Assembly: GCA_946699065.1 (NCBI GenBank)
Contig: CAMPDV010000437.1
Location: 62,001-126,000 of the forward strand
Direction: 5' to 3'
Length of the DNA stretch: 64,000 nt
Source: Loxodes magnus
Taxonomy: Eukaryota > Ciliophora > Karyorelictea > Loxodida > Loxodidae
Both the position numbers and the translations under genes were made by a program. The notes beneath the pieces are model-generated. The model ran no database searches. It was given only the letters and a program-made list of their open reading frames with translations, and was not told the origin of the DNA. This document shows, one piece after another, positions 5,823 through 59,576 of this stretch (position 1 is its first letter; each line of letters starts with the position of its first letter).

Positions 5823-6880
5823 TCATTAAAATAACTGTTCGCCTTCCGGCTTAATTGAAGTTTTAATTGTATAAAGTCTCCGTTCCTGCATGTTTGTTCC
5901 TTGCATTGTTTTTTTTCCTTGACTTTTCTCTTTTGAATAAATTGAGTTGAAAATTTATTTTTCTTCCAAATTTTCCCATTTTCCGATGGAAAGAATTCCA
6001 TCGCTCGCTACTTTAGTTGCTATTAGGCTATTAGTTAACATTTCTCCTGATATTCCATCTTATTTTTTCTATTGGGGACATTTCCGCCATAAATGTCAAG
6101 TGCTGTTGCAAATAAAATATATTTTTCTTGTTCTAGGAAATGTATTTTCTTGTTTCCCTATTTCCATTGGAGTTCCTTAAGAAGGCTTCTACAGGTTTTC
6201 TTATATTAATTTGAGATTTTAATCTAATTTTACTTAATTTTTCTCATCTTGCTCTTGCATTACTCAAATATCATTCTCTAAACTTGCAATTTGTTCATAA
6301 ACTCCGACTTTAGCTCTTCAGTCTACCATATGGGCTTCATCATCACCTTTATGATTTATCAAATCCTGACTTATTATAAACATCTCTTCCTTCTGGGAGT
6401 TTAATTCCTCTTCGAGATTTATGTTTCTAATAAGTTGATGAATCAGCTGTTTCAACTACTCAGAGTCTGTTTTTTCTATTTCAGAATTGTCTAAATCAAA
6501 GGTAATAGGATTTATATTGAATTATCGTTCTTTACCTTTTAGTTTATTCTTTATTTTTTCGTTATTATTTTTATCGATTCAGTTGAGTGTTCTCTTTTTT
6601 CAGTATTCAATGGAGGTGTTGAGAGCTGTGTTAACTTTTCTGTTCTTAATTTTTATCTCTGTTCTTACTTGTCCTTTGATGGGAGAGATCCGTTTTATTA
6701 AATTTGTAGGAGTTAGTATTTTTTATAAGTTCTTCTAGTCTATTAGATAATTCTAATTATTTTATTAAGAAGAGCGTTAAGTTAAAGAAGACGTGGTGAG
6801 AATATGTTCTTCTAGTTTTTTCTCCTGTTCTGAGGAGGTGGAATAAAAACCCTTCTTGAAGCCAGGCATTTTATTTTTAA
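5823..6880 (-). mobile_element. CCHC-ORF retroelement with 348-codon ORF
   Basis: From an ATG at 6,869 to a TGA at 5,823-5,825 lies 1,047 nt (349 codons including stop) in one frame. The N-terminus MPGFKKGFY...LTTSS aligns with MAEGLRKGFF...TTSS of the elements at 1-660 and 62,974. A Gln/Glu-rich coiled coil occupies the middle and a zinc-knuckle-like segment (CNSTWHLWRKC) begins near residue 250. It is a longer relative of the 256-residue family and looks whole at the protein level. It lies across the left end of the tandem duplication: the repeat begins inside this ORF at 6,203, so units 2 and 3 carry only its 5' two thirds. Confidence 0.65.
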
Positions 6881-9800
6881 AGGAAAAATATAAAAATATT
6901 TAAATTAATGCTTTACTATTTTTTGTTTTATAAGAGATAATTTATTATACAATATTCTATATTTCTTCTATATTATTTAATTCATATTTTATTCAAAATA
7001 TTTTTCACTCTAAGTTTGCAATAAAATACTTTTTAATTTTAGAATTAAATTTTATATTAGTTTTAGATAAATTTTAACTATAAATAAGAAAAAGTTTTTT
7101 ATATATTTGTAAATTTTATTAATTAAAAAAATGCATTTTATTTTATTTTAAAACTTAAAAGATATCAAAATAATACAAATCAAATAATTTAGACATCAAT
7201 TAAGATTTTAAAATAGTTACAAAAAATTAAAGAAAATATGTTAGTTTTAAAAAATGCTAATATAAAATTTTATATTAAAAAGATTTATTTTTATTATTTA
7301 TTAAAATAGTTAAAAAAAGTAATTTCATTAAAAAAGATTTAAATTATTCTAGCAATATGAAATGCTATTTAGTCTAATATAATGTTTGTTAAATCAAAAA
7401 TATTCAAAATATATTAATGATTTTATTTTTAGTTAAACATTTTTTTTTATTTTGTCTATATTTCAATTAAATTTTATTAATATATTTCTTAAATCTTCTT
7501 TTAAATATAATAAAACAAGAAATATTCATAAATTTTAATAAATTATTTTTTAATTTAAATTAAAAATCTACTAAATAGTTAAAATGAGATTTGATATAAA
7601 TTTCTTTAAAAATCTTAATGTTAAGAAATAATTAAATAATATAAAATAAATTTAAAATATAATATAAGTAAATATTCAATTTTTCTAGTTTGGATATTTT
7701 CTTCTGCTGTGCAATTATAATTTTAAAATTTCGACTATTAGTTTTGGATTAAATATATGATTAAATAATCATTCGAATAAAAAAATTTTTGATATATTTT
7801 AAGCTAAAAAACTTGAAATTTATTTATTAATAAACTTCATTCAAAAATTATAGTAATTTTAAGGAAAATATTAAATGTTGATTAGAATAAAAATGAATAT
7901 ATTATCTTTTTTAGTAATTAAACTAAATTACATTTTTTGTTTGTTTTTTAATTTAATTAAGTTTAAAAAAGATCTTTAGTATTTTTTAATTATAGTTTAT
8001 ATTATGTAATAATTTACACTTAAATTTTATATAAAATTTATTTTTGATAGACTTTCTTCTTTACTTTATCTTTTTTACTCTTTCTTTAAATAAGCTTCAA
8101 CTTATAATTATTTCAGGATTAACTTTTTAAAATCCAGTTTTAAAATTTTCTATTATAACTCTACTTTTGCTGATGAAGCTATAAACAAAGCAAAAATAAA
8201 TTAGTATTTGTATATCTATATTTATATAATAAACTTAGTTTTAAAATAAATATTCTATATATTTTCTAAATTTTTAAACTTAACTTTTTTTAATTTCTAT
8301 TTTTATCTAGAATTTCTAACTATTATTCCAATAACTAAAAAACAAAAAAGTTATAACTTGAAATATTATATTATTTAGGGAAAAATGAAATCATCATAGT
8401 AAGATATTATTAAATTTCATTTTATTAATTAAAATTGAATTTATTTCTTTTAAATATTCATTTATGCAAGATATATCTTTAACTTTATCATTAAACATTA
8501 CATAATTACCTGGCTATCTAAGTATACAATAACTAATTTTTTATAGATTTAAGAACTAAAAATTTCAAATAAGTTAACTTTATTTATTTGATAAGAATCT
8601 AAATAATTATAATAAAATGAAATGCTTATACATTTTAAACAAATAAAGTGATTTTAAAAGTATTCTTTTATCTAATCTTTATTCAAATCCTTTTTTTCCC
8701 TTTTAAAATTAAATATTATATTTAAATTTTTAAGTAAAAAATACTAATATTACAAACTTTTAATTTTAATAAATATTATAAATTTTTTTCCAAAAAGACA
8801 GTAATAAAATTTAATATTCTTATTGATTTTTAATAATAAATTTATTATTTGCATATAATTACTTTTCTTATATTTAAGTTAATTTATTAGAAAGCTTAAA
8901 ACTTTTTTATTTATATCTATTATCCAAAGCCAGAATTATCTATAAATCAATTAAATAAATTAGGTTGAAAGTTTTAAGATTTATCTAAAATATATAAATT
9001 AAAGTTTATTCTAAATATAAAGTTTTAGCTTAAATTGCTTTATGAAATAAATAAATGCTTTACTTTTAATAACTAGGGATAATCTATTAGATCTTTAAAT
9101 CTTAAAGTTTTAATAGTAATATATATAATTGATTATAGTTTAACTCAGTAACAATTTAATTTTTTAAAGTTTATATCTATAAATGTCTTATCTTTAGTTT
9201 CTTTTGTGACTTTATATTCTTCATGAGATATATAAAAGTTTATGGATATTCAAATTCTTTATGTATTATTGTTCCAGTCCAGTTTATTTTCATGTATGAA
9301 TTGTTAATAATTTTCGTTTATGTCTATCACTATTTATTGTAACTTCAGACTCTATAATAGATTTCTTCTTATAGAAGATTTTTCATAAAGAAATTGATAA
9401 AATAATAAAAATTATTTTCCTTAAACAAGTTTTCAAAGTGAAAATTAATTATGCTGCGATAGAAAGTAATCAAAGAGATCTTGCTCAATATATTTAAATT
9501 TTAAAGCAGTAGCTAGTTATAATTGTAAATACAACTATATATTCTAAAGAGTAATTTTATAACTTCAAAAAGAGTTAACTAAGCTATTTACTCATAAAGC
9601 TATTATATAATAGCTTGTTTAAATGCTTCTATAATAATTATTTATTTTAAAATTTTGGCTTAATTAATATTATTTTGGTTTTAAATATCTATAAATATTT
9701 AAGATAAATGAAAACAAACAAATAGTTAATTTAACATTTTATTATAAATTGGATGAAAAATAAAAACTTTTAGAGATATAATTTAACTTATAAGGGTTTA

Positions 9801-10188
9801 AGATAATTACTCATAGTTACTACCATTTTATTTTAAGACTTGCTCTTAAATATAAAACTCATGCAAACATATACAACAGTAGATATTTTTAATTCCACTT
9901 TTAATTCTTTTTTGTATATAAATAATTATTCATTTTTGCTTTATACTTTTAAAATAAAATATTTATTAACCAAAATATCTAACTTTTATCCTTCAAATAA
10001 ACAAATAAAATTACGAAAAGAGTATAATCCTTTTTGTTATATTTGATAGTGATAATATATATAGGATTTACTTTATAAAAGCTAATTATAAATAAATTAT
10101 TTTATAAAGTTTACTTTTCTCTTCATTTATAACCAAAGTAAATCATTTATTTTATAATTTCCTTTTATTAATCACTTACCACCTAAAT
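6881..10188. other. AT-rich non-coding part of L (unit 1)
   Basis: About 3.3 kb with no gene I can support, repeated almost unchanged in units 2 and 3. A 68-codon standard-code ORF at 9,840-10,046 is kept in unit 3 but not in unit 2, so it is probably chance. The last few hundred bases are presumably the promoter of the F-box/LRR gene. Confidence 0.5.
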
Positions 10189-13020
10189 ATGTACGCAAAT
10201 ACTAGTAGTTCAAGTACCAAATGCTAAAAACCATTACCGCAAAGGAAAAAGTATCTATCAAAATCTTTGGATAATTTGAGTTAAGACTGCCTTACATTTA
10301 AAACTCAATTTGAGTAAAAAGCTGAAATTATTTAAGCAACGGAAGAAATCTAAGCCTCATAAAATTAGAAAATTTAGTAACTATAAAAATAAGAAGAAAA
10401 CATATAGGAAGCTAAATAGTAAAATAAGTAAGAAATTAGCTTTTAGAATGAATAGAAAAATAAGAAATAACAGCTAGAAATAGAAATTGCAAATCCTTCA
10501 AAAGCACAATAGAACTTTTGAAGAAATAAATATATTCTAGATTAGATAGCTTTGCATTTAGACGAAATAGAGATAGCTAACTTATAGAAAGTAAATAAAT
10601 ACTTTTATTGATACAACTATTACTTTTAGAGACTAGATATAAGTAATATCTATAGGGATTAACAAAAGAATAAACAAAAAATCAAATGGTTGCTTAAGTA
10701 AATAGTCATATCTGATGTTAAAGAAATCAGACTAGATATATAAAGTTTTTCTCCAAGTTTTTGCTAATTTATTCAGAAAAATCTTGACTAATCTATCTAG
10801 CAGAGAAAAGAAAAAATGATAAATTCTTCTCTCATTAAATTAGAAAGAATTAAAATATTAAGTTGGTCTATTAGGAAATTAGATTTACCTAATCTATCTA
10901 ATATGTAAAGTTTAGTAGAAATAAGCATATTGCATATCAAGTTAAGAGACTCAAATTTATGGTTCTTGAAAGATTTAATAAATTTAAGAGTTATTGAGTT
11001 TGATCATCTAGATATTACAGGCTAATTTTTAATGGATTACTGTCTAAACCTTAATATAGAAGTGCTAAAATTACAGTGCTAATCTCTAAATGACAGGATA
11101 GTAATATAATATTTAAAATTAAAAGGAAAATAACTTAGAGAGATTTAAATTAAATATAATTAGCATATTGATTAGTTTTTAGATTTCTGTCCCAATCTAG
11201 TTTCAATAGACTTATAGCAAATTAGAGATTAATAGGATTAAATTATAGATAAAATAAAAAGAAACGATCTTCAAAGATTATCCATTGATATAACTAACTT
11301 CTCAAGTCAATCATTATTAGATTTATTTTCTAGGGAATAATAATAATAATAGTAAACTAAAAGTAATTAAAGTTTAGCATTCCCTGGATTTTCAACCAGG
11401 TTTTTGCTACCATTTTTTTAGCGTGGATGGATACCACGCCATTTTTTTATGTGGATGGAACCACAGAGGATCTTCTGTCTTTTATGTGAATAGTTTTCTC
11501 TTGTAAATCCCTGTTTAGGTTATTCAGAGTCTGCTGAGTATGCTTAACGTTCTTTATTGTTCTTTTATCTAAATTTATCTTCACTAATCGCAATTTTGTA
11601 ATAAGTGTCACTTTGATTTGCAATAATAGCATTGCTTGCCTTGTTTTTTCTTGAATCTCTTCAGAAATACTTTTTTTTCAAGTTAATCGATTCTTTTGAT
11701 TAAATCTATATTAATCTTTTAGTCATTCTATTTTTCTTAAACGTTTGCTTATGTAGAAACATTTTCGATAATCATATTTTGTTCTTGCTTAAAATTCGAT
11801 TGAGATTATTCATATAGTTACTATTCCGTGACTAGATTATTCTAAATCAATTATCGTCTAATTATTAGAAGCTCGTTATTTTAATCTTCGATAGTATTCA
11901 TTAGTTCTCTTATTTTTTCCCCTTGGTTGTAAATTGTTTCCTAATAATTTTGTATTATTGTTTTCATTTGGTCAAGCTATATTTATATTTCGGATTATTT
12001 TTATACCTTTACTGGATTCGATTCTATTGTTCCGATTATGATTTTTCCTTCAGAGGAGGAACTTGATTTATCTTCTTCTTGTTGTTGTCTCTGCATTTGT
12101 TTCGCAGCTTTCCTTTTTGCGTTCTTAATTTGGTTTTTGGAAAGGCGAATAGATTATTCCATTTTTATATATTTATTATTTTCTAGGGAATATACCAAAC
12201 TTGATTATATTGATATTAGAAGCTAATTTACCTTCTAAATAGAAGTGTTTAAATAAATTGTTTCTAACGTTCCTAATATTCGAAAGATAGAATGATGGCA
12301 ATATTTAAACTAGTTTGACATTTAGCAATAAAGTAGTTCTTTATTAAGCTAAATTAATGTTTAGGATAAATTACTTACTAAACTAGAAGATATTTCTTTT
12401 TATGGAATAGAGGAAGAAAGTGAGTAAGTTTTAGGGTAATTGCTTTTAAAAGCTCCTAATATAAAATGAATAGTTTTTAATAATTTCCAAGAGTATGAGG
12501 AAGAAAAGTTAGATAAGTAAAAAGTAGAAATTTACTAGTAGTAGTAATATTTAATTCCTTTTACATTTAATAAGTTAGAACATATTTCTTTAGCTGGATG
12601 TACAGTAATAAGAGATTATATTATTAACTAACTATTCTAAAAAGCTCCTAACTTAAAAAATTTGAATGTTTAAAATTTAGATCAATTAAGTAATGAAAGC
12701 TAAAATAAATAGGAATCTATTCAACAAAACTAGAGGAAATATAGATATGAGATTCATATCAAATAACAGATTAAACTATCTGCTTTATACTATAAAACTG
12801 CTCTAATTTAAAGAAAGTTAGCATTTCAGTATGTTAATATGCATGAAATGAATAAAATATATTAAAGGGGTAGGATTTTACTTAAACAAACAAAGTAAAT
12901 GAAGCAAACAAAGCAAACAAAGCAAATGAGATAACTAATAATAGATATTCATTGATAGAATATTTAACTTCCTTAGAAAAGGAATAAAAGATAAGTGATG
13001 TGATAAAATAAATAGTTAGT
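10189..13020 (+). pseudogene. F-box-like/LRR gene, interrupted copy (unit 1)
   Basis: From ATG 10,189 the frame is open for about 380 codons: a Ser-rich start (MYANTSSSSTK), a Gln/Glu coiled coil (residues 40-105), an F-box-like helix set from residue 109 (YILDQIALHLDEIEIANL), then leucine-rich repeats with LxxLxL spacing. At SRE (11,329) the gene is split by an 836-bp retroelement flanked by a 17-bp duplication; coding resumes at 12,182 with YTKLDY. A 26-nt GT-AG intron near 12,870 restores frame for NEANKAN. The sequence then leaves the gene at 13,019, where the copy in unit 3 continues for another 780 bp, so this copy also lacks the native C-terminus. The family would be an SCF-type substrate receptor; the F-box call is by pattern only. 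Confidence 0.65.
11340..12175 (-). mobile_element. Whole CCHC-ORF retroelement in F-box/LRR gene
   Basis: 836 bp flanked by identical 17-bp direct repeats (11,323-11,339 and 12,176-12,192). Unit 3 has the empty site with one copy of that 17-mer (55,043-55,059). On the minus strand an ATG at 12,162 opens a 771-nt ORF ending in TGA at 11,392, the same length as the ORF at 62,974. It begins MEQSIRLSKNQ, has a basic Gln-rich coiled coil, a knuckle CYYCKSKWHLLQNC at residue 178 and a downstream ILSRLWITQTGIYKRKLF segment. A hairpin (CCTGG/CCAGG) surrounds the stop codon, and the element ends in a short TTA repeat. The variable-length duplication and 3' microrepeat indicate target-primed insertion by a LINE-type enzyme. 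Confidence 0.8.
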
Positions 13021-13039
13021 AAATAAAAAAGATTGAAAT

Positions 13040-14850
13040 TTAAACGTGGAGGTAAAACTATGATCTGCTAGAGCTTGATCTAATTCTATTAATAAGTTTG
13101 AATATCGATAGTAGAAGATATATAAAGGCTTGAAAGTAAAATCTTTAATTAAAACTCCGATTAACTTGAGGGCTTGATATAGTTCTGGAATAAAGTCTGA
13201 GCATCGAAAAGAGCCTAATTGTGGAGGCTTAAAACTAAACCATGAATTAAAGCTGCGTTCTACTAAAGAACTTGCCTTATTTCGAAAAAAAAATTAAGTA
13301 TCGAAAATAGATATTGTAAAAGAGGTTGAAAGTTAAACCTTGAGATAAAAAACAGTTTAACTTGAGTATTTGATCTGTTTTCTGAAAATAATTCTGAAAA
13401 AAGAAAATAGTTTTTTAAATAATAAGGCTTGAAAGCTAAAACATTAAGCAAAATTTCACTCTAATTAAGGGTAAGATCTAGTTCTTAAACCAAGTTTGAG
13501 TATCAAAAATAGCTGTTGAAATATGGCTTTAAAGTAAACTTTGAGATAAAAATAAGGTATACTTGAAAATTTGATCTAGTTCTGATAATAAGTCTGAGTA
13601 TAAATATCAACAAATGAAAAAAGTCTTGAAACCATGAAGTTAAACTAGTTCAGCTTAAGAACTTGATCTAGTCCATGAATCAAGTCTTAAAAAAATCTAT
13701 CAATAATTAAAAAGATGGTGGGAGCTGAGATTGACCTTCTGAATCATACTTTCTGGTTTTATGGCTAGGAACAAGTTCCTTTCCTGTCGCTGAGAAAGTC
13801 CCTGGTCAAAGCCAACCTTTGCAAGGGAACACCTTCCTCTTAATTATCCACTCCTGGTAGGGGCTTGGCTGCCCATAGCGATGGAGCTCCCTGGCAGCTG
13901 CTTTTCGAAAGCAACAGGATATCCCCGTTATCCCATGAAGGGAGTGTTGGGGTCGTTAAACTGCAAGAAGTTGGAGTCCAAAAACTCTTTTAGTTTAAAA
14001 TTAAATTAAAAAAATCTATCACATAAAAAGGCTTTAAAATTAAGCATTGAAGAAAAAATATGTTCAAATTGAGGGAAAAATTAGTTTAGAAAAAAATATA
14101 AATATTGAAAATTAACAATGTATAAAAAGCTTGAAAGTTAAACCTTAAAGAAAAACTCCATTTAACTAGAATTTTAAATCAAGTTGTGAATGAAAGTCAG
14201 AATATAGAAGCTAGTCGAATATCTCAAAATTGTTGAAGTAAAAAATAGAATTATTACGAAGATCAGATTGAAAATGAAATAGTTCGTAAAGCAAGTTGAA
14301 GTATGAGAAAAGCCAAAATTTAAAAGTTTAAAATCTAAACCTTAAATTATCCTCAGATTAACTTAAAAACTTGAATTAGTTATAAAGAAAGTCTGAGTAG
14401 AGATAAAGCCAAATTGCTTAAAGACTGAAAGTAGAACTTCGAATTTGACTCCTTTATACTTGAGAAGATGTTCTAGTTCTCAAATAAGTCTTAGTTACTA
14501 TAAAGCAAAAGTACTTAAAAAATGAAAGTACAACTTATGTATAGACTCCGTTTCACTTGAGAGCTTTGGTCTAGTTTTAAAAATTAAGTAGGGATAAAGT
14601 TGTAGAACCTAAAAATTGAAAGAAGAACTTAGACTAAAAACTCCATTTGTTTGAGAGTTTATATCCAGTTCTGAAAATCATTAGGGATAAATCTGAGAAG
14701 CGAAAATTTTAATGTTGAATTTTGAGTAAAAGCTCAATTTAGAAAGCCTTGTTCTAGTTCTCAAAATGAGTCTTATTAGGGATAAAGCTGAAGTTCCTAG
14801 AAGATTTTGAGTAAAACTTTGAATTAAAACTCCATTCTGCCCTGTCTAAA
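13040..14850. repeat. Minisatellite, ~97-bp units (unit 1)
   Basis: About 17-18 degenerate head-to-tail copies, spacing 89-104 bp. Landmarks of each copy on the + strand are a GGCTTGAAAGTTAAACCTTGA-like start, AAACTCCATTTAACTTGAG, then CTTGATCTAGTTCTGAAAATAAG and GTCTGAGTATCGAAAA. Copies of the AACTCC box lie near 14,345, 14,445, 14,548, 14,641, 14,733 and 14,830. A SINE-like element is inserted at 13,703. The right-hand three units read on the minus strand as the C-terminus of the lysine-rich gene at 14,553-15,121. Confidence 0.8.
13703..14007. mobile_element. GC-rich SINE-like element (unit 1, copy a)
   Basis: 305 bp, visibly far richer in G+C than everything around it, flanked by a 14-bp direct repeat (13,689-13,702 and 14,008-14,021). 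It is about 97% identical to the element at 25,232. Inside are short self-complementary stretches (GGAAC-AA-GTTCC; GCTTT-TCG-AAAGC). It begins TAATTAAAAAGATGGTGGG and ends ACTCTTTTAG plus an A/T-rich tail. I see no convincing tRNA, 5S or 7SL head, so its parent RNA is unknown. Target duplications of unequal length fit LINE-mediated retrotransposition. Confidence 0.75.
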
Positions 14851-15121
14851 AATTTTCTCACTCTCATTCTTTTTATCATATTCTTACTTAAGATTTCTGA
14901 GAAATGCTTAGTAATTTCATTTGCTTGCATTTCTGCTGGAAGGAGTCTTTGGTTGTAGTTCTTTTCTTCTAAAATTTTTTTAAATAGATAAATTTTTCTC
15001 TTTTAGCAGTTCCGAGCATCTCATTCTCGTCTATTTTTTTCTCGTTCTTTTCTTCCTACATTCTAAATTTTCACAGAGCTTTTGTCTTAGTAAATGTTCT
15101 AACTTACCTACTTTTTTTCAT
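14553..15121 (-). CDS. Lysine-rich protein with minisatellite-encoded C-terminus (unit 1)
   Basis: Not recognised. From ATG 15,121 (MKKSRQVRTFTKTKALWKF) the product is Lys/Arg/Glu-rich and probably coiled. The second half (EEKNYNQRLLPAEMQANEI...SKNMIKRMRVRKFLDRAEW) is in another frame, joined if a 29-nt GT-AG segment in 15,030-15,062 is removed; that gives 180 codons to the TGA at 14,553. Its last ~90 residues come from the minisatellite, with repeated WSFNSKF/WSFQSKF units. It is divergent to the RING-Kelch gene (326 bp between starts). Intron placement is inference. Confidence 0.4.
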
Positions 15122-15446
15122 AGGTTGTTTAGCTTTAAGATTCTTGTCCCTTTTTTTAGTGGATTCCTCTTTATAGTTTTTCAAGCCTTTATGATAGAGA
15201 TATTTTTCTTTAAAATATTTTAAAAAATTTGATTAAATTGTAAAGCTCTTTCATGCCTTTTTTAAATTTACCAAACAGTCAAGATAGGCGGCATGCAGAT
15301 TGTAGATAGGTACTTGATATAAGAGACTAATATTGTAGTATGTATGTAATGATAGATATTTGAATTTATAATGGTTAATAATAATTTTTGATGGTAACTG
15401 TTATAAATTACCTTTATAAGCTTTTTTAATCTAAATAATAATAAAA

Positions 15447-16913
15447 ATGTAAGCGTTACCAAAATGCTTAATCTGCTTAGAAGATTACAACTTAACTAAT
15501 GCTCTTCCAACTGTCTTACCTTGTGGACATATTTACTGTGGTGTATGTTTGTTTACCTAGTGATATTTATAAGATTTTATGTAATGTCCTATTTGTTAAA
15601 AAGGATTCCATTTTAGATTTGAAGACTTACCTTAAGAAAGTGATTTAATAAGAATGATATTTTAAAACTAATAATACATATAAAAGATTTAAGATGCTAG
15701 ATAGAAATTAAAAGAGATAAGGAAGTAAATTATGCAAAAATCTAAAACCATTACAACCAAATTATCTAACATTACTAATACTCTCATTATACCATATACT
15801 AATATCATCCAATACACTACTATCATTAACCTACTTTTATCTACAACTAATAACACTCAAATATTATACAATCATCCTAATTCCCTATTTACTAATATCT
15901 AAAACCAACTATAATCTAATCTAACTATAACAGTCTAACTATATTCCACTATATAACCACCTTTAATACAAAACCTATCTAAATTAACTTCAAATTATAT
16001 CACACAAATAAGATACAAACTATAATAGAATACTAAGCAGCAAAAACTAAACATTATACAGACTAATTAAGATAAACTAAGCTAATAGTTACATTTTATG
16101 TAATCTAACTATATTCACTATTTTAATTGAGGAATTTAAAAATTAAGCTTATTTAATATTTAAACAGAGTAATTACGATAAGTCTAAGTTTAAATTATAA
16201 TTCCAGAATCTAGTTAAAGTATAGAATATTAAAATAAGTTATATTTAATTGGAGGATGCTACTAAAATTAAAATTTAGGAATAAAATAAACTTGATAATT
16301 TGATTTCGAAGGAAATAATATAAAACTTAGTGATCTAAATTAGGGAAGATATGGATTTGGAATAGCAGCTGCTTAAAAAAATCTTTATGTGGTTGGAGGA
16401 GGTACTAGTAAAAATCAAGTTTTATAATCAGTAGAAAAGTTATAGATAGGAAACTAAAGCAAATGATAAAAACGCTCTTAATTTCCATTCTAAATAGCCT
16501 ATTAAACTTTAGTAGTAGATAAAGATGAATAAAATATTTATTCTTTTGGAGGTGGAAATTAGAAAGGATAAACTTTAAAAGATATATGAAAGTACAACAT
16601 ATAGAATGATAGATGGAGTAAGTAAAATTTGAATCTTCCTGAAGCTGTTGCTTTTCCTATAGTTTGTTTAGAACCTTTTGTCATATTTGGAGGTTTAAAA
16701 AATTATTCTACGAAAGAATATTCAAGAAGAATATATAAAAGAAAGAAAGAATAATGAGAATAAAGTTAAATTTTTAAAGATGTTGTAACTTTAACGGAGA
16801 TGAAAATAAGAGGTGTCTATGGATATGTTTTTGCTATAGAATAGGGAAGAGTTTCAATAATGAGGATTGATTTAGAAAAATTGAGTTATAGAAGTGTTAA
16901 AAGCCATAACTGA
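15447..16913 (+). CDS. RING finger-Kelch protein (unit 1)
   Basis: One uninterrupted ORF of 489 codons, ATG 15,447 to TGA 16,911-16,913. Residues 7-50 form a C3HC4 RING: CLIC, PCGHIYCG, VC and CPIC supply the eight zinc ligands. A Gln/Asn/Thr/Ile-rich linker follows, then Kelch repeats from residue 266 (YLIGGCY, LYVVGGG, IYSFGGG, VIFGG), with Trp of DIWKYN and SKWQKR written TGA. RING domains recruit E2 enzymes and Kelch propellers bind substrates, so this is probably a cytosolic ubiquitin ligase; the RING-plus-Kelch order is unusual. The segment between ligands six and seven differs sharply from the copy at 37,308. Confidence 0.85.
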
Positions 16914-17173
16914 TAAACACAATAATAATATTTCTTTTATTAATAGTATTAATAATATATTTTCACATATAAAGAAGTAGTTTAAATATATATAATTAAG
17001 TAAATATGTTACTACTTATTAATATGGTTAATCTATATTTATTTATGTTATATTTTTATAACTAAGTTTTTTTGTATGTTTAAGTGTATATATGATGTTG
17101 ATATAGTAGGTAATGTAGTTATAGCTATATAGTTAACAATAAAGACTTAGCAATAATTTAGTATATTAATTAA

Positions 17174-18562
17174 ATGATTATCAAAATGTATTAGATAAAT
17201 TATGATTTCCTATACTATTTTCTAAACATTATTTTCCTTACTAACTCTTTTTAAAGCTTAAATAAATAAAGAATCAAATTTTATCTAAACATCTTTAAAA
17301 ATCTATTATTTAAATATTATCATTATTAAGATACTAACATACAGCTTATAACATACCAAAACATATTCAACAATGTCAAAAAATTATCTTTAATACATCT
17401 ATTTATCTAATCAAATAAAAGCTATAATCAAATAATCATTAAACTATACCTATATCTAAATACTAATTAAGTCATTACTACTATCATCATTCAATATCTT
17501 AAAGTCTAAAATACATTATTTCCTTTAATCATTTAAACTAGAAACTGATATACTTTAAATTTCCTTCTATTTACAATAATAAAATCAGGCTATTATAACT
17601 CCTATACTTTAGATAAAGATTCAATCATAATAAATAAATAATAATAAATAAGAAGTATTAAAGTATTATAGCTAAAAAATAGACTACAAATAAATATAAG
17701 AATACTTTCAAATAAAAGGGAAACACATTAATTAGCTAAAAATTAATGGTAATAAGTTACTAAATAAAATAGTAGATTTATGTTCTAATATAAAACAAAT
17801 ATATTTATAATTAGTCTAATAATTATCAGTCTCATTTTTCAAAAAATAAGCAAATATCTTTAATAGCTAACTCTTAATATAACTAATTTATCGAATTAGG
17901 CTATTAGAAGATTATTCTGTCATTAATATCTAAGCCTTGAATCTCTTAAAGTTATAAATTTAGATTATTTTAGACCAGAAGTTTTGCCTCTCTTACTTTA
18001 AAATACTAGTAATATTGAGAATTAGAATATAGAGAAAGAGTAAAACCCTTTAATTAATTTTTTAGGAATAAAGCAAGGATCAATATCAGATTTAAGTAAA
18101 CACTTCATTTATATAATTAGCAAAGCTAGAGTAAGTTACAGTTAGTGATCGGAATAATGGAATGATATAATTCTATAGGAACTATTTCAAAAAGCTCCTA
18201 ATATAAATAAACTAAATGTTTTTCAATATAAACATAATAAAAAATGTATTTAGTAAGAGATATAAAAGAGAATATGTAGATGCATCCAATAAAAAGTAAA
18301 TTACCCTTATTATCAAACTCATTTAAATAACTTGAAGAAGTTAGTTTTATTAAATGTACTTCAATAAGAGATTAATTTAAATAAAAAAAGAAAAGTTAAA
18401 AATTAAAATTTAATTAGATATTAATAAATTATTAATAGCCTATCAATCTTTACTACTAATATCATTATATGCAAAAATATAAATACTAAGCTAAATAAAA
18501 TAGGAAGAGCTCCTTTAAACTAATTGGGGATATAAAGGCTTTAAAATACTTCTAATTAATGA
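17174..18562 (+). CDS. LRR protein (unit 1)
   Basis: A single 463-codon ORF (ATG 17,174, TGA 18,560-18,562) with no intron needed. LRR-type LxxLxL segments recur: VKKLSLIHLF, YLQQLTLNITNL, LESLKVINLDYF, LFQKAPNINKLNVF and LNNLKKLVLLNVL. No F-box, membrane segment or catalytic domain is visible. The phrase LFQKAPN-K-LNV is shared almost verbatim with the F-box-like/LRR gene (LFQKAPNLKNLNV), so the two are paralogues. It follows the RING-Kelch gene on the same strand after 260 bp. An upstream ATG is not excluded. Confidence 0.7.
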
Positions 18563-19772
18563 GTATAAATTAAAGCTTAATCATTTAAGACATTTCATCA
18601 AAATAAATTACTTATCTAAACTTCGATTTTTCCTCTAGATTTCAGCTTTAGTTTAAAAAAACAGGTAAACTTCGTAATTAAATTTAACTCTAAGCAGATT
18701 AATTGTATTATATCCTTTGATTTAATTAACTCAATAACTTAAGGGCTTATTTTAAGATCTTTTGCTTTATTAGTAATTTTCGTTTTTAAAGATTACCTTT
18801 TAGCTTTCAAGCATAAGTGTATTAAATAAAAACCTCTTTTGAATCAACTCTCTTTTCTCCTTTTCTCTTAATCTAATACTTATTATAGTAACAGACAAGC
18901 ATACTTTCTTTAATGCCTTTATAACTTATTATGAAGGTATTTGATATCTTAAAAACAAAGAGACAAACGCAGAAAAACCTAAACTAAAAATATAAACTTC
19001 TTGTTATTAAGTTAGAATATCAAATTACTTTGATTAAGTACTGCCGAGTTTTCCAGATTTAATTTAAATTCAATATTGAATACACTTTTTTAAACTATAA
19101 CTCGGTAACACAAAAACATATCAGATGATAATTTTACTATGCAAATATTAAATAATAAGCATTCCTTTTTAGTTTATATAGTTAATTTCTACTTTAAATT
19201 AGAAGGTTAATAGACTTTCTTAGAGGGTTTTATATATCTATACATATAAAGAAATAAATCAAAGGTATCTCTTAATTTGCATTAAAAGGCATTCAAATTA
19301 GAGTATAGCACTACCAAGGATATATCTCCATTATATTTAATATATTGTAATTATTGCTTTTTAGTCATTAATCAATAAATTTTACGTATATCAATTGTTA
19401 TGCTAAGGTCAGCAAAGCAATAAAAATTTGGCACTAGAAACTCAATCTTTATGCGAAATCAAAAAATAAAAAAATAATTTTTTAATTAATAATAAAAGTT
19501 CTGTAGATTAAATGATTGAGATTAAAACCTATAATAATAGCCAGAAGCTATTCTAATAATAGACTAATTTTAAGAATTTATATATATTCTTAAAATGATA
19601 TACTAGTAGCAAAGCTAGTGATTTGATCATAGCAGCTCATAGTTAGCATTTTATTTGTTTGAATCTAACACTAAAAATCTTGCATATCCTTAAGATTTCT
19701 AGTTAGCTTTGAGATTTTATTTCTTAGACTGCTGCTTTTTCTAAATAAGTAAAAATAACTATGCTCTAAACC
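18563..19772. other. Intergenic, no gene recognised (unit 1)
   Basis: Nothing with a recognisable domain. A weak inverted pair (CCGAG near 19,042; CTCGG near 19,102) is too short to call an element. Confidence 0.4.
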
Positions 19773-20554
19773 ATGGATAAGGATTTTTTCTATAATTTCT
19801 GGGTTTTTGGTTTGCAAAACTTAGTCAGTTTAAAATATAACAACATTTATAAAAAAAATTAATTCAAATCGTAAGTAAATGATTTCAAGTATTTTTAGAT
19901 AATGAAGATGATTAAAATCCCATTACATAATTATCTTATTCTTGAATACTGCTTTTAAGATTAACTAACTAAAACTATGCAAGAGATAATTTTATTCTTT
20001 TAGGTTGAATTACTTAAAAGAATGAATTGCAAGTATCATATATAATGTAAACAAAGGCATAAAGTTATTAAATTATGGAAGTTAAATTATTGAAATAAAG
20101 TTTATAGTAACTTTGCTATGAAGGGATTTTGTAAGATAAAGTTGAATTGGGTTAATAACTTTAAATTTTCAAGCTTAAGAAAATGAAATTTAAAGACCTT
20201 TAGTATTATTATAAATAATAGCAATATCTATAAATGCGTTTAAAAAAAGAAGAAAGCCTATACAATCTAAGCAATTTAAGAGAAAATTACTTAGTTAATA
20301 CCTACATAAATAGTATAAGGAAATTGATATAGCTTATCAATGATGTTTAGTTACTAATTAACATATATCTAGTTGGAAAAATTGAATAAAGATATTTTAT
20401 GGTTTAAATTTTTATATCCCTGCTTTCAAATTTTTAAAAACTAAGGAGAATATTTATATAACTAGCATCTTATTTTACTTTTTAAAGGAGTATATTTGAT
20501 CTGACAACAATTTAAACTGTAGGCCACTTTTAATATTAATAATAATTGTTTTGA
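19773..20554 (+). CDS. Hypothetical protein (unit 1)
   Basis: Not recognised. The main exon is open to TGA 20,552-20,554 and looks coding (FLDNEDDQNPITQLSYSW near the start; NSIRKLIQLINDVQLL and LGQQLQIFKLKKMKFKDL later; C-terminus VGHFQYQQQLF). The start MDKDFFYNFW at 19,773 joins in frame if a 26-nt GT-AG segment (19,803-19,828) is an intron, giving 251 residues; this first exon is uncertain. It converges with the minus-strand gene at 20,982. Confidence 0.45.
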
Positions 20555-20981
20555 AATTAAATAGTAACTTTTTCGCATAATTAGATCTATAGAATTAACT
20601 TAAAAAAAACTAAGTTTACACTCCTAAACTATTTTCTAAATCTCTATTCTTTTATGCTTTTCTATCTTGCTACTTCTATTTTTGTTATTTACTTTTATCA
20701 ACTTAGAATGAGCTAATATTATTAAATAGATAGATAACTAGATATAATTTATTCTATATTATGCTTGCATTATTCTATCAATATTCATTTCATGGTACTT
20801 TAAATAAAGAGAAACTATTTTTATAATTCTAAACACTTTAATGCCATCTATTAGAGTATCTTAGTTAAGTGTATATATAGAATATTGTCTTCACCTTGAC
20901 TTTCTTTTATATGATTATTATTACATCTTAATAATACCAGAATGCTTCCATCAAAAGTTTCAAAGCATTTGAGCTTTATTA

Positions 20982-21922
20982 TCAAGCATGCTTGGATAGA
21001 AATAGATTATAAGTATTTATAGATCCTTTATTTATATGCAAAAGTGTTTTTCTTTACGATTATATCTTTGCTTAAAGGCATTCAACAAGCCGTCTTAATA
21101 TTTAAAATTTTTTTAGTTATTAAATAATTAATACTTGTGATTAGCTAGCTATGCATACTTTTGCTTCTACTTGCTTCATTTTGCTCTTTCTTGTTCTTAG
21201 TAGCAACTTTTATACCTTTAAATTTGAAATTAGATTTATTAATTAATATTTAGATGAGGCAGAATTTGCTAATTTACTTTCAGCTTAAGTAAAATTCTTT
21301 TGAAGTTTCTTACGAGATACATACTTCTTATTTCTTGTATGGTAATTTTTAAACTGCTTAAATGCTCCAATAAGTAGATAAGTAGAACTAACTCTATTTT
21401 TGCTTATCTAATTCGATATTTTCTCAAGATCTGATGTGATGAGTAGATTCTTATTAAATCAAATTGAAGCTAATAGATTATTTTTTGCTTATTGCTCTTA
21501 AGAATAAATATTTCTTAGTTGCTCCAATTTAAGTTCAATCAATATAGTTAGATTAAACTTTAGAGTTGCATGATTATTTCCTTTAATTTAACTTAAGCCA
21601 ACATATTCAAAAATACTATTATTATCATATTTTCTTAAGTAAAAACTGGAAAAAATTTATCTTCATTAATACCCAAAATCTAGTTTTTTTCCCAAGAACT
21701 AATCAAGCTTACTATCTTTTATTTAAATTATTCTCTGTCTATTTGCTTCTCAATACTATACTAATATCCAGAAAAGCTTTTACTTATATAGGTCCAAAAC
21801 AATTTACCAACCACTTCAGAATAAATAAATACAATTAGCTTTACTTTAAATCAACACTATCACTAGCTATAGTCAGTTTTAAACTCATCAGACTTTCCTT
21901 TATTTATTCCTGATGTATTCAT
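20982..21922 (-). CDS. Hypothetical basic protein (unit 1)
   Basis: Not recognised. ATG at 21,922 (MNTSGINKGKSDEFKTDY), TGA at 20,982-20,984. Two frames are joined exactly by removing a 23-nt GT-AG segment at 21,739-21,761, giving 305 residues. The second half is basic and probably helical (LIELKLEQLRNIYSQEQQ, then FKQFKNYHTRNKKYVSRKK and a Ser/Lys-rich tail). Divergent to the kinase gene, 440 bp between starts. Confidence 0.5.
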
Positions 21923-22362
21923 GCTAAGAAACTTAGTATCTTGGCTATCTCTATCATTTTATCCTAAATAATGCAGCTATTTTAATAAAGGTTAAATAGG
22001 GAAGTGAAACAAGAGATTAGAGTCTGAAGAAAGTGGCAGAAGCTTAAAAAGGAAAAAGTAAGGTATATAATAGAAAGGAATACAGAATAAGCATTTTGTT
22101 AGATTGATATCTACAACACACTATTTGGAAATAATGCTTGATTATATAAAGATAGACAGATAAAGCATTAATTTAATTTAAGCTAATAGATAATTTATAA
22201 ATGGGAAATAACTAATATCATTTAACTTTAATCAAATTCTTTACTAAATGCTTCCTCAACTAAAATAATTAAAAGCAAAACTAGTAGCTTGAATAAACGA
22301 TGGACTAAGTTGGAAGTTAGCATGAGTTTAAATTAAAACAAAATAGATAGATTGAAGATAAG

Positions 22363-24008
22363 ATGAGCTAGATAGGAGATAATAAAAATGTAAAGCAAGA
22401 AGAAAAGGAAAGAAAGTAAAAGAACTTAAAGTTTTTTAAAGCTTATACATTAAATGAAACTAACTAATCTTAGAAGCAACCAGAAAGCAAATTAATTAAT
22501 TAGCCCATTTCCTATAACTAAATTATCTAAAATACCAAAAAATCTTTCTTTTGAAAAAGAGCTCAGAGTCTCAAGCCATTGTAGAACTAAAAAATCAGCA
22601 TTAGTAGCTCTTCTTTCATTCAAAGAAGGAAAAGTAAATTAGAAAATTCATACACACTGGAAAAGAAGATAGGAGAAGGTAGCTATGGCAAAGTGTTCAT
22701 TGCTAAAAGCAAGTTTAGCTAAAAAAATTATGTTATCAAAATAATAAACACTTAGAAGAATAAAAAAGTAGTTAGGAGGGAGTATCAAATATTAAAAAAT
22801 TTTGTAAGTAACTCTATTTCAGGATCATCCTAACATAGTAAAGCTGTTTGAAATATACTAGGATGAGTAATATACTCAATTTGTAACAGAATACATTAAG
22901 GGATAGAATTTGGTTGATATAGTGAATGAAGGTACTAGCTAAACTAGAATAAAGTTAAGAAAATAATGAAATAAATTCTTCAAGGAGTTTCTTACTTCCA
23001 TTAAAATGGAATCTTGCATAGAGATCTAAAGCTTGATAATATCGTATGCTAGAATATTGAAGATCCAGATAAACTATAAGTCAAAATAATAGACTTTGGA
23101 TTATCAATAGCTCACTAAAAGGCAAAAGATAAAAAGATAATAGGAAGGCCTAAGTACCTAGCTCCTGAAGCATATGCAGGACAGTATTAATTTAAAAGCG
23201 ATATATGAAGCTGTGGAGTCATAATGTATCTTCTTTTATCCCATAACTTTCCTTTTAGAAGTTAAAAAATAAAAGATTAGCAAAAGAATTAAATTAACCT
23301 GAAAATATGAAAGTTAAAACTAAGAAATTCAGTCTTAAGTTTGAAGAAAAAGTATGATAAGAAGTGTCAGAGCAAGCAAAGGATTTAGTTAATTAATTGC
23401 TATAATTAGATCAGTAAGAAAGAGTCAGTGCTTAACAGGCTTTAAAGCACGAATGATTTAAAAACTGTCTAAAGGTAAACTTCAATTTAATTGAAGAGTA
23501 CTTAGATAGAATGCTACAATTTTAAGTTAACAAGAAAATAAAAATCGCAGTTTACTGATATATAGTTACTTAGCTAATGGATTCTTAAGAGAATATGCAT
23601 ATTGGAGATGTCTTCGCTTTCGTTGATTATAATTAAGACGGAAAGATTTCTTTATAAGATCTGATAAAGTCTTTAAAAAAGGTATACTAGTAGAAAATAT
23701 AGCAGCAGGATGCTGAAGAAATCTTCAATTCGTTAGATATAAACAACAGTGGGCATTTAGAGTGAAGCAAATTTCTAATTGCCTGTCTGTAGTGAGATAA
23801 AATCCTAAGGGAAAACAATTATCTAGATCTTGTAATCCAAAAACTGCGATACAAAGAAACTGACTAAATTAAGAAAAAATGCTTCTATAAATTCTTTCAA
23901 GGCAACTTAGATAAAAGCCAGATAAAGGAGATAATTTAAGAAATTTAGTTTGATAACTAGGAAAGAATTTCTACATATTAGTTCAAAAGAATAATGCTAG
24001 AAAAATGA
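22363..24008 (+). CDS. Calcium-dependent protein kinase, CDPK type (unit 1)
   Basis: ATG 22,363 (MSQIGDNKNVKQ) to TGA 24,006-24,008; removing GT-AG introns of 19 nt (22,804-22,822), 23 nt (22,932-22,954) and 20 nt (23,261-23,280) gives an exact 527-residue frame. The kinase domain has GEGSYGKV (residue ~104), the VIK lysine, HRDLKLDN (205), DFG (230), APE (253) and DIWSCG (266, Trp = TGA). It ends HEWFKN (Trp = TGA). A junction helix leads to EF-hands DYNQDGKISLQD (401) and DINNSGHLEWSK (438); a third, weaker pair follows. CDPKs are Ca2+-activated Ser/Thr kinases typical of ciliates and plants. The ~95-residue N-terminus is Ser/Lys/Gln-rich and has no N-myristoylation glycine at position 2. 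Confidence 0.9.
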
Positions 24009-24195
24009 AAAAGAGATTATTTATCTTATTTATTTTTAATTTAAAATTTACTCAAAACATTCAAATCTGGTTTGAAGTTAGCCTTACTTAAATTAATGGG
24101 CTTAAATATATAAATTGCTTATTAATTATAAATATAATCTACTTTCTAATATGCTTGTCTTTAAGCACTATTAATTTAGTATAATTAGAATTTAT

Positions 24196-25071
24196 TCAAA
24201 ACCCCTTTGATTCATTCATGAAATTCTCTACTTTGAATATCAGTAGAAAAATTTTCTATTTAATAAGTTAAATAATAAAGTTTAGACTTAAATTGAAGTT
24301 AAGCAATCTAAAGAGATTCTTCAATTAACTTTAAAGCTCTTCTTATAGCTAAATGAATTGTAATTATTAAGACTTAATTATCTAACTAGTAAAAGGTAAT
24401 AAGTAAATATTTTAAAACCTCTTAAGAGTTTATTTCAACCTCTAGCAAATGTATCTTATTATAGCCAACTATTTTAAATTTATGGATATTAATTAGAGAT
24501 AATTTTCAAATTTTCTATGGCTAGTTTTAAATCAATAAGACTGCTGAATTAGCAAGAGGATTTATTAGCGAATCTTGCTCATTAGACTGTCTGATTCAAC
24601 AAGGTTTGCTAATCTTATAAGAACTCTCAGTTGTAAATTTTTGGAAAATTTCAGAGTAGAACTGTTAAACTTTTTCTTCATCCTAAGCATTTAGTATTTA
24701 TTAACTTATTGGCGAAAGCAATTTTGCTTCTTTCTTAATATAGTTACCATTTTTTATCTTCAGTTTATAGCAACTATTTCAATACTCTTAAGCTATATAA
24801 GATAAGCTTTATTTTACAGATATTCAATAAAGAATGTTTATTCTTTTTAGAAACACTAATAATACTAAATATTCTATTTTATTAAAGCTTTGATTGATAA
24901 ATTTTTCAATTATGTAATAGTCACTTAATAGAGAGTATTAATTCATAGCTTTACTGAATTTTCGAGGTTATTTTCAAATTATAAGCAACATAGAATAGAA
25001 AATATTTTTGCATAAATCATTTAGAAAAATTTAAATTTCTACTTAGTTCTTTATATCACCACAATTTCCAT
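24196..25071 (-). CDS. LRR-like protein (unit 1)
   Basis: A 292-codon ORF, ATG 25,071 to TGA 24,196-24,198, in one frame. Leucine-rich segments such as TQLKNLSIKALI, LIQLKSIEIVAINW and LQLRVLIRLANLV suggest degenerate LRRs; the C-terminus is NFMNESKGF. The frame stays open upstream of the chosen ATG towards the SINE-like insertion at 25,232, so the true start may be further up and the insertion may have removed it. Tail-to-tail with the kinase gene (188 bp apart). Confidence 0.55.
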
Positions 25072-25231
25072 TAAACATTCTTATGAGAAAGCCTTTGAAG
25101 CTTATTTCTCAGTATTTTTTAGATAAATAAATGGAATAAGCAATATAAGCAAAATATGCAAGATAAAGCATAAATGAGCTTCTTAAGAATCTATTTAGAA
25201 TTTAAGAAGTAAGTTAAGATATATGAGTAAA

Positions 25232-25534
25232 TAATTAAAAAGATGGTGGGAGCTGAGATTGACCTTCTGAATCATACTTTCTGGTTTTATGGCTAGGAAC
25301 AAGTTCCTTTCCTGTCGCTGAGAAAGTCCCTGGTCAAAGTCAACCTTTGCAAGGGAACGCCTTCCTTTTGATTATCCACTCCTGGTAGGGGCTTGGCTGC
25401 CCATAGCGATGGAGCTCCCTGGCAGCTGCTTTTCGAAAGCAACAAGATATCCCCGTTATCCCATGAAGGGAGTGTTGGGGTCATTAAACTGCAAGAAGTT
25501 GCAGTCCAAAACTCTTTTAGTTTAAAATTAATTA
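25232..25534. mobile_element. GC-rich SINE-like element (unit 1, copy b)
   Basis: 303 bp between 16-bp direct repeats (25,216-25,231 and 25,535-25,550). It is the same element and orientation as at 13,703, with about eight base differences, so the two insertions are separate but recent. It sits upstream of the LRR gene at 24,196 and downstream of the one at 26,063. A 63-codon standard-code ORF on its minus strand is not shared intact with the other copy. Confidence 0.75.
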
Positions 25535-25550
25535 AAGATATATGAGTAAA

Positions 25551-26062
25551 GCATTCTAAAGTTCTTTATTAACCCAGTCATTAGTTAGGAGTTTTATTTG
25601 CTTTTATTTTTTAAGTTTTTATTTTTCAATTTGTTCATTAAATTTAAAGCAAAAAGCAATTTATTCTTGGACTATTTAGATTTTATTTAAGATAAAGCTA
25701 AGTTAAATTATCTTGTAGACGAATAAAAATAAAAAAGGATAGACTGAGAGTGTGAATCAAAATGCTAAGCTATTTATAAGTAGCATGCCAATAATTTGTT
25801 TAGTCCTTATATTAATTTTACAAAGATTTGCTTATATAAATTAGAAGGTATGCATTTACTTTTAAATGAATAATGATATGGGAATTTGATATTTAAATAA
25901 AGATTTTTACATAAATAATTTATTTAATTTTTCTCTTTAAAGTTAGCAAATAAAATGCTTTTATGTTTTAGTATGAAGGTATTAGTAAAATAGCTATTAA
26001 AGATATATCAGTTAGAATTTAAAGTTTATTAATAAGTAACTTAAGTTTGATAGCATATGGGA
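25551..26062. other. Intergenic, no gene recognised (unit 1)
   Basis: AT-rich spacer between two minus-strand LRR genes, presumably promoter of the gene at 24,196. No motif identified. Confidence 0.4.
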
Positions 26063-28209
26063 TCAAATCTTTTTACTAAGATCTACTTTCAATATAAAAT
26101 CGATTTCTTAATTGTCATCTGCTCTTTCAAAATTTCCAAAATTTATCTAAATTTATCTGAAGCTTTAAAATAGACTCTAGGCTCGCTACACACTTAACTT
26201 TATACATTTAAGCAGATCTAAATTTCTTAGCTTTTAGTAGATAGGATAAATTTACCCTAATTAGTTTTTTATTGGAAATGCCTCTTGAGAGATTTCTTAG
26301 TTATTACTCAAATTTAAACTAGATAAATTTTAGCATTTTGCTACTATTTCAACTACATCTTAATTTTCTATCTAGCAACTACTAAGACACAAATGCTTCA
26401 ATCTTGGAATACTGACTATATAATATATCCAGTTTTTATTCACAAAGTTACATCTTTAAAGCTTAAATATTTCCAAAAAAAGACAATTTTTATTTATTAA
26501 CTCTAGCATGTGATTTCTTATTTATTCTATATCTGAAAGACAGATACTCTTTAGTCTTTTACAGTTTTGGAAAATGTTTATCAAATCTTGCTCTTAAATT
26601 TAATTCATATTTAGAATGGAAATCTACTCATAGCTTTATCCTCGGTCTCCTATTTATCTAAAGAATAGGTTTTATAAATCATTAAGTTTGCTAAGACTTA
26701 GTGATTTTAAGTTAGGCACATTTTAAAGCAGCAGACTGAGATATTTATCTTCTAAATTAGTGCAGTTTGATATCTTTATTGCTTCTAGTTAGTTTAATTA
26801 CTTAGCAATAAATGCTTCGATATCTAAATCACTTTATTCTTTTTCTTCCTTTGTCTTAGTCTTGATTAAATCTAAATTGTTAATGGATAATTATTTTAGA
26901 TTAGGAGAATTATATATTAATCATCAGAAATTTGAGCTCAAGTTCTTGCAGTTTCATAAAGTCAAATTTTAAAGTTGAGAAAAAATAATCTCTGTATAGT
27001 AAAAGTAGCAATTTCTAGATTGTATCAACTATTTAATCTAAGCAACTTCTAATTATTGAGGAGGAACTTCTACTAAGTCAAGTTGGAATAAAACTAATTA
27101 TCTCAAATTAGGAGCTATTTGAAGTAAGTGTACAATGTCAAGCTCACTAAAGCAGTCACTTCTTTGTATTTTTACTGATATTAATTTACTGTTGCACTGA
27201 GACTTTAAAATTGGAAGTTAACTTTTAATTTCTTTTCTGTTTTCATTTTAAAATAGATTCGATTAAGCTACTTAATTTGTTTCCCTTTTTAATAAGTCCA
27301 TATCGAGATTCTTTAAATTAGGAGCAATTTGAAGTAAAATGCTGATAACTTCCTTCTTGAAGTTGCTTCAATTTGAAATGTTTACTTTCTCGAGATAAAT
27401 ACTTTTTAGGGATAAAAGATTTATCCTCAACTAATCTTCTTAAGATTAATCATACTATTTACTTTGCTGCTATTCTTAGTTTATGTTACATAAAGTTATT
27501 TCCTTCAAGAATGGAGAGTTTATTAGCAGCTAAAATAAGTTTATGAGATTGAAACCTTAACTTTCTTCAATTTTAACTTCAACAAGTTTTGATTACTTCT
27601 AAACAAAAAATTAAGTAAAAGCTCAAGAAGTAAAACTGATTTTCTCTAGACTAAGATAACTGACCTAGATTAACTAAAAACTAATCTGATAACTTATGAG
27701 CTTTTCCTAAGTTAATTTTTGATAGAGAGGGACAAAAGTTAATGAAAAGGTCCATTTGCTTATTTCAATTGATATTTATTTCTTTTAATAAATTTCCTTT
27801 TAGTCTTAAAAAAGAAATTAGATCCTCATAGTTTATTTCTCTACTTATTATAATCAACGTTTTTAGAGGTAATTCCAAATAGTATTCCTTTAGAAACTTG
27901 CCACTTATTTTTTTTTACGTAATATAGCTCAATAAATTCTAGGTTTGGTAGATATTAAATGAAAGATAAATTTTGGTCATCTAGATTCATGTTTAGAAGT
28001 TAAAGCTTCTTTAGATTTCTGCAGAGTGAGATATCAGGCAGAGATATTATATTAACAGGCCAGTATGATATTTGAACTTCTTACAGCTTTATTAATCTTC
28101 TATTTAACTATTTATATTGGAAACATTTGCTTAAATCCTTCTAAATCAAGCTACATAGATTTTCTGATAAACTCATTGAGTTGACACAAAATCTTATACT
28201 TCTTAGCAT
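26063..28209 (-). CDS. Large LRR protein (unit 1)
   Basis: The C-terminal two thirds are classic LRRs: APNLKNLDMDLL, APNLRQLVLFQL, SPNLKQLSINNL, VPNLKSLSLSKL, IPRLKHLCLSSC, CQNLSSLNLSNN, then NFERADDNQEIDF and TGA at 26,063-26,065. N-terminal LRRs (CRNLKKLQLLNMNL, LPNLEFIELYY) start from ATG 28,209 or 28,176. A 19-nt GT-AG segment (GTCAG...CTAG) joins the halves as LVNLEKISF. In this unit a T run at 27,908 has nine T where unit 2 has eight, so this copy is frameshifted (or carries a sequencing error); unit 2 reads through. The repeats resemble the F-box-like/LRR gene. The N-terminus ends about 110 bp from the duplication junction, so an upstream exon may be lost. Confidence 0.7.
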
Positions 28210-28316
28210 GCAATTTATTTGAAAATCCACTCTTATTAGTTTCTTAATTGATCTAATAGACAGAATTCTATTTTTTCGATTGTTATTTCACTAAATGTAT
28301 AGTCAAACTTATAGAA

Positions 28317-28989
28317 ATATTAATTTGAGCTTTTAATCTAATTTTACTTAATTTTTCTCATCTTGCCCTTGCATTACTCAAATATCATTCTCTAAACTTG
28401 CAATTTGTTCATAAACTCTGACTTTAGCTCTTCAGTCTACCATATGGGCTTCATCATCATCTTCATGATTTATCAAATCCTGACTTATTATAAACATCTC
28501 TTCCTTCTGGGAGTTTAATTCCTCTTCGAGATTTATGTTTCTAATAAGATGATGAATCAGCTGTTTCATCTATTCAGAGTCTGTTTGTTCTATTTCAGAA
28601 TTGTCTAAATCAAAGGTAATAGGATCTATATTGAATTATCGTTCTTTACCTTTACCTTTTCGTTTATTTTTTCATTATTATTTTTATCGATTCAATTGAG
28701 TGGTCTCTTTTTTCAGTTTTCAGTTTCAATGAAGATGTTGAGAGCTTGTTAACTTTTCTGTTCTTAATTTTTATTTCAGTTCTTATTTGTCCTTTGATGG
28801 AAGAGATTCCCTTTATTTTAATTTGTGGGATTTAGTATTTTTTATAAGCTCTTCTAATTTATTAGATAGTTCTGGTTATTTTTATTAAGAAGAGCATTAA
28901 GTTGAAGAAGACGTGGTAAGAATATGTGCTTCTAGTTTTCTCTCCTGTTCTGAAGAGGTGGTATAAAAACTCTTCTTGAAGTCAGCCAT
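28317..28989 (-). mobile_element. CCHC-ORF retroelement, 5' fragment (unit 2)
   Basis: Homologous to 6,203-6,869, starting MADFKKSFY at 28,989. It is cut at the duplication junction, so the zinc-knuckle end is absent. It differs from the unit 1 copy at many positions but is almost identical to that in unit 3. Confidence 0.7.
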
Positions 28990-58432: not shown

Positions 58433-58492
58433 AAAGCTAGGATTTTCCCTAATTCATCATAGCTAAGTTAATCATAATATAAATGTTTTCTA

Positions 58493-58868: not shown

Positions 58869-59576
<708 letters not shown>

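Follow-up and report, generated by a model that had tools for sequence, protein, structure and literature searches.

A 36-nucleotide cluster of substitutions in the RING domain of twin RING-Kelch genes: a candidate for short gene conversion

Two RING-Kelch genes lie in tandem in the 64,000-nucleotide stretch of DNA that we analysed (hereafter the window), and a short patch within the RING domain is their only difference. We asked what kind of event could have produced such a patch and what it might mean for the two proteins. The copies, offset by 21,861 nt at this point, differ by 14 substitutions and zero indels, with 36 nt from the first change to the last (Table 1). An initial annotation had claimed 14 substitutions in 39 nt without length change. 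This was borne out, the true span being 36 nt; the 39 nt correspond to these 36 nt plus the remainder of codon 44 and an unchanged Met codon. With Gln for TAA and TAG and Trp for TGA, the two versions translate as VCLFTQWYLQDFM and LCLNTEYWLQGIM, as that annotation had it.

Table 1. Coordinates of the features discussed (window positions)
Feature	Position	Strand	Basis
Patch, unit 1 version, codons 33-44, 14 substitutions relative to unit 2	15543-15578	+	alignment
Patch, unit 2 version	37404-37439	+	alignment
RING-Kelch gene, unit 1 copy, ATG at 15447, 488 codons, TGA at 16911-16913 as putative stop	15447-16913	+	translation (TAA/TAG=Q, TGA=W); Pfam RING and Kelch above cut-off
RING-Kelch gene, unit 2 copy, with stop	37308-38774	+	translation; Pfam
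RING domain, unit 1, residues 6-52	15462-15602	+	Pfam PF13445 and PF13639; PDB phmmer
Kelch region, unit 1, residues 259-442, best PF24681 stretch	16221-16772	+	Pfam
Repeat unit 1, as aligned	7134-28986	+	self-BLAST
Repeat unit 2, as aligned	28987-50846	+	self-BLAST
Partial third unit, without RING gene and without an internal ~0.84 kb	50847-55877	+	self-BLAST
Repeat R, copy 1	6203-13019		three-way alignment
Repeat R, middle copy, flanking the duplicated segment; left part copy-3-like, right part copy-1-like	28317-34880	+	three-way alignment
Repeat R, copy 3	50177-55900		three-way alignment
CDPK-like gene, unit 1: protein kinase 22651-23394, EF hands 23598-23783	22651-23783		Pfam
Triosephosphate isomerase domain	59124-59594	+	Pfam
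Mitochondrial carrier protein, better of two matched stretches	61099-61359	-	Pfam
Leucine-rich repeat, weak, under curated cut-off	26288-26407	-	Pfam
COG2_N, weak match	~9441-9533	+	Pfam
tRNA-Glu (TTC), sole tRNA found	3720-3792

The surroundings of the patch were nearly invariant. Between 11463 and 28986 (17.5 kb), 15 substitutions separate the two copies, and 14 of them fall within the patch, the remaining SNP lying at 17923. The sole length difference in this interval is a T-run at 27908, nine against eight, a type of difference that long reads often misread. Identity was exact over 4080 nt upstream of the patch and 2344 nt downstream, and then over 9984 nt more past one SNP. Assuming a uniform rate, the probability that 14 of 15 substitutions would fall inside 36 nt of the 17.5 kb is approximately 2e-33. 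The runner-up among 39-nt windows of the 26-kb comparison holds 8 substitutions and is situated at a diverged array edge (7146). Within the patch the substitutions are mixed, with 6 transitions and 8 transversions. The patch is real and statistically extreme. Moreover, 14 substitutions in 36 nt, as compared with one SNP and one T-run in the rest of 11463-28986, point to one event and not to many, and such clustered differences between close copies are a hallmark of interlocus gene conversion. The description of the copies as otherwise almost identical over 21.9 kb needs correction: units 1 and 2 are unevenly alike and show further differences at ~6.2-8.4 kb and 9.7-11.5 kb.

Next to the patch itself, the identity of the encoded protein matters for its interpretation. 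The unit 1 gene is a single frame of 488 codons (15447-16910) whose product combines a RING, a predicted long helix (residues 66-99) and a Kelch region. Pfam and PDB matches supported both annotated domains and a location of the patch around Cys34, with zinc ligand 5 before it and ligand 7 after it. Indeed, the ligands that we assigned by eye, C7, C10, C26, H28, C31, C34, C47 and C50, follow a C3HC4 pattern in both copies, the RING-HC profile PF13445 scored 35.3 and 36.6 bits for the two copies (cut-off 25.2), and the Kelch propeller profile PF24681 scored 113.7 bits (cut-off 50). In a phmmer search of PDB at E<=0.01, the unit 1 version matched 44 distinct chains and the unit 2 version 57. RNF4 was the best match of both, in an alignment with a two-residue gap inside the patch, and the TRIM25 alignment continued across the patch, needing a single-residue insertion close to the end of the patch. 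TRIM proteins consist of a RING, a B-box, a coiled coil and a C-terminal domain. The twin proteins resemble TRIM25 in their N-terminal RING with an aligning helix, their predicted long helix and their C-terminal interaction domain. They differ from it in their Kelch C-terminus and in the B-box that defines the TRIM family: each copy had 17 families listed at E<=0.1, none of them a B-box model. The RING hydrophobic residue Ile9 is unchanged between the twins, and Gln51 follows the last zinc ligand, a position at which Arg or Lys is commoner (PMC13061254). AlphaFold models of residues 1-100, obtained from two-row alignments, reached a mean pLDDT of only 48.9 and 49.7. Block means were 34-50 over residues 1-60, and owing to these low values the patch was not read from the models. 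Confidence in the long helix rose to block means of 76 and 80-81 only beyond about residue 80.

In the genetic code used for these translations, TAA and TAG specify Gln, and in-frame TGA specifies Trp. TGA occurs at Trp positions of the Kelch region and of the kinase encoded by the CDPK-like gene, in DIWSCGV and HEWF, which we take to be kinase Trp motifs. The frame of the CDPK-like gene is restored by three short GT..AG introns (19, 23 and 20 nt), which we picked by eye. Judging from sequence features, this code and the 19-23-nt introns fit a karyorelict such as Loxodes; introns of Loxodes magnus are reported to average 19.3 nt, and its UGA to be read as Trp or stop (PMC11441545). An 18-nt intron-like string, GTATGTTTGTTTACCTAG, is present at the start of the unit 1 patch (15543-15560) and missing from unit 2, and its splicing would entail the in-frame loss of Cys34. 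The + strand has three strings of the form GTATGT..YAG with a length of 16-25 nt, and that this is one of them gives no evidence for an intron; we rejected that reading. Gene finding by codon usage recovered only its training gene and the twin, and lists of ORFs and TGA-free stretches gave no further lead.

We then considered what the substitutions do to the protein. Eight codons are changed between codons 33 and 44, and seven of these alter the amino acid, in keeping with the earlier statement that nearly all changes are replacements. This did not translate into an amino-acid excess per site: averaging over mutational paths, pN was 0.33 (10.5 replacement changes for 32.2 sites) and pS was 0.51 (3.5 silent changes for 6.8 sites). 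Positive selection on the patch is therefore unsupported, silent sites differing at least as much as replacement sites. At the sequence level, two paralogues under mild constraint would be expected to look like this. The reading frame is kept. The zinc ligands had been described as identical and flanking; they are present in both copies, but Cys34, the sixth ligand and likewise unchanged, sits within the patch. When 14 sites were changed at random 20,000 times, Cys34 was retained in 28% of cases.

A single templated event accounts best for the patch, and the ordinary mechanism for such an event is ectopic conversion from a different RING gene. With moderate confidence, we propose a recent tandem duplication by unequal crossing-over followed by a short conversion of this kind. 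A segment carrying the RING-Kelch and CDPK-like genes would have been duplicated through unequal crossing-over between flanking repeats. Later, or on the chromosome that supplied one of the copies, a tract of at least 36 nt in one copy would have been replaced with the corresponding sequence of a diverged RING paralogue. Such a replacement would exchange the predicted E2-facing helix and keep the zinc ligands and the frame. The donor, the unit that changed and an effect on the choice of E2 are what we infer. Conversion from a paralogous RING gene was already among the suggestions of the initial annotation, and it is supported here as the best explanation by the clustering of the substitutions and by the match of both versions to solved RINGs, with no donor found. 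Indeed, an ungapped scan and exact k-mers revealed no donor in the window, where exact matches to either patch at other sites reached 12 nt at most. No donor came out of IMG/VR, searched at the protein level and for exact 20-nt matches, or out of GTDB contigs by one DNA pattern scan, these viral and bacterial/archaeal records, respectively, being a weak test for a ciliate donor.

Estimates of the mean tract length in interlocus conversion are of the order of 10-100 bp (PMC3924818). The twin genes conform to that process in that a clustered, frame-keeping replacement affects one of two near-identical copies, short tracts being normal (PMC3924818). They depart from it in that no donor was found and the tract covers a single functional element. 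A review of Paramecium describes conversion between whole-genome-duplication duplicates as "widespread" and point-mutation rates of ciliates as very low, the latter having been measured in Tetrahymena and Paramecium and not in karyorelicts (PMC11334263). Besides the empty donor searches, two observations count against conversion, namely, the two-residue gap of the RNF4 alignment within the patch and the mixed outcome of a control with randomised patches. This control comprised eight patches, four changed at the same 14 sites (sparing Cys34) and four at random sites. Both natural versions beat all eight with PF13445 (43.2 and 43.5 bits as compared with at most 42.0), and with PF13639 unit 2 exceeded all eight and unit 1 seven of them. 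With PF14634, in contrast, unit 1 scored 33.5 bits, below all four same-site controls (37.3-38.9), and unit 2 was level with the best. Both natural versions were outscored by one control of the eight with PF00097 and by two with PF13923, and unit 2 was outscored by two with PF13920. Both versions are thus good RINGs, clearly separated only from the random-site changes, and the control offers weak evidence of descent from a RING paralogue.

The duplication itself left traces in the repeat architecture. Self-BLAST delimited a tandem repeat of ~21.86 kb, with two full units and a partial third. The 26-kb self-alignment, which pairs unit 1 with unit 2 and the start of unit 2 with unit 3, contains 100 differing columns, 82 of which are substitutions. 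With the patch set aside, almost all of these differences fall into two places: the left edge, where copy 1 has diverged, and 9.7-11.5 kb together with the corresponding stretch of units 2 and 3. Self-BLAST also detected a 309-nt direct repeat with 97% identity, present twice per unit in units 1 and 2 (13702-14010 and 25230-25536 in the first). A further repeat, R, is present in three copies. Upon three-way alignment, the middle copy was of the copy 3 type up to ~9.7 kb (copy 1 coordinates; one mismatch) and of the copy 1 type from ~11.5 kb onward. At ~8.7-9.7 kb the R copies share a stretch free of base mismatches, and at 31610-32708 the middle copy carries 11 private SNPs, absent from the first and third copies. 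This mosaic bears the mark of an unequal crossing-over among the copies of R that would have duplicated the ~15-kb segment between them. The 11 private SNPs count against a single crossover, since its simple version leaves them unexplained.

A possibility was that the two units represent one locus whose two haplotypes were strung in tandem by the assembler, the patch being an allelic difference that would itself probably derive from conversion. An assembler looping through R should yield a similar mosaic, minus the private SNPs of the middle copy. The mismatch-free stretch of R could be the joint of such a loop, and the private SNPs are haplotype-like; yet a loop that joins just copies 1 and 3 does not produce them. 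The published L. magnus assembly, if the window comes from it, was produced with Falcon from HiFi reads at 20-30x, unphased and with a 96% identity threshold, and the heterozygosity of this species is ~0.6% (PMC11441545). At this value, 17.5 kb should contain ~100 SNPs, and the single one seen outside the patch falls far below, which speaks against ordinary alleles. We consider this scenario unlikely.

The repeat units exceed the typical length of HiFi reads, which lends something to the idea that one unit acquired the patch in the assembly only, through a chimeric read or an erroneous join to a paralogous RING gene. In addition, polishing relied on reads with mapping quality of at least 20 (PMC11441545, again if the window comes from that assembly), and the near-identical units may have been left unpolished. 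Such an artefact would nevertheless need two switches within ~40 nt, with exact flanks of more than 2 kb on each side, as is unexpected of a read or contig join, and we regard it as very improbable.

Slightly less credit still goes to the targeted diversification put forward earlier, in which a cassette or a retroelement-like mutator would recurrently alter the E2 helix. As in diversity-generating retroelements and antigenic cassette switching, the variable patch is confined, here to one functional element, and its flanks are constant. Unlike in those systems, no enzyme, template repeat or base bias was apparent in the parts searched. When both strands of 1-29002 and 55000-64000 were scanned with Pfam, no reverse transcriptase, transposase or recombinase scored at E<=0.01, although genes broken by introns or lying at piece ends could escape such a search; the interval 29003-54999, mostly repeat copies, was scanned at the RING gene only. 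Neither the nearby reverse transcriptase nor the changes at one base type that characterise diversity-generating retroelements were seen in the parts scanned, the substitutions being of mixed type. Besides, only two versions were seen and silent divergence is not below replacement divergence, and the suggestion is unsupported. Least probable of all is local template switching between inverted repeats, a process that in yeast produces clusters of amino-acid changes (PMC8604942), or else several independent mutations in a burst, as no inverted repeat of at least 10 nt overlapped the patch in the 439-nt regions searched, neither patch matched more than 12 nt elsewhere in the window, and the count excludes independent mutations under a uniform rate.

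Returning to short conversion from a RING paralogue, we asked what the exchange might do. Structure predictions for MuRF1 (TRIM63) concentrate selectivity for E2E1, one of four E2s, in the central RING helix, and place the selective contacts of the other E2s partly or wholly outside it (PMC12103069). The patch affects the same structural element, in which only part of the selectivity predicted for MuRF1 resides. By analogy with that other RING, and thus mainly on structure prediction (PMC12103069), the helix may bear on the choice of E2. The twin proteins would have a common fold and Kelch domain, their difference being confined to the helix that is predicted to contact the E2. A change of E2 choice, as proposed in the initial annotation, or of activity is a plausible hypothesis. 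No paper on the twin gene itself or on RING-helix conversion in ciliates stood out among the literature matches listed, and one may still exist.

Collectively, the conversion looks like an ordinary type of event in an unusually meaningful position. A bolder and, in our view, improbable extension is that a karyorelict RING-Kelch family swaps its E2-docking helix as a module, through recurrent short conversion from a family pool, such that one substrate receptor would be served by different E2s. If both versions are real, they constitute a natural helix-swap experiment in ligase-like genes that are identical outside one helix, and any difference in E2 use or output could then be assigned to that helix. 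The pair would further illustrate that a single short conversion could suffice to re-wire an E3, within a phylum whose point-mutation rates, as measured in Tetrahymena and Paramecium, are very low (PMC11334263).
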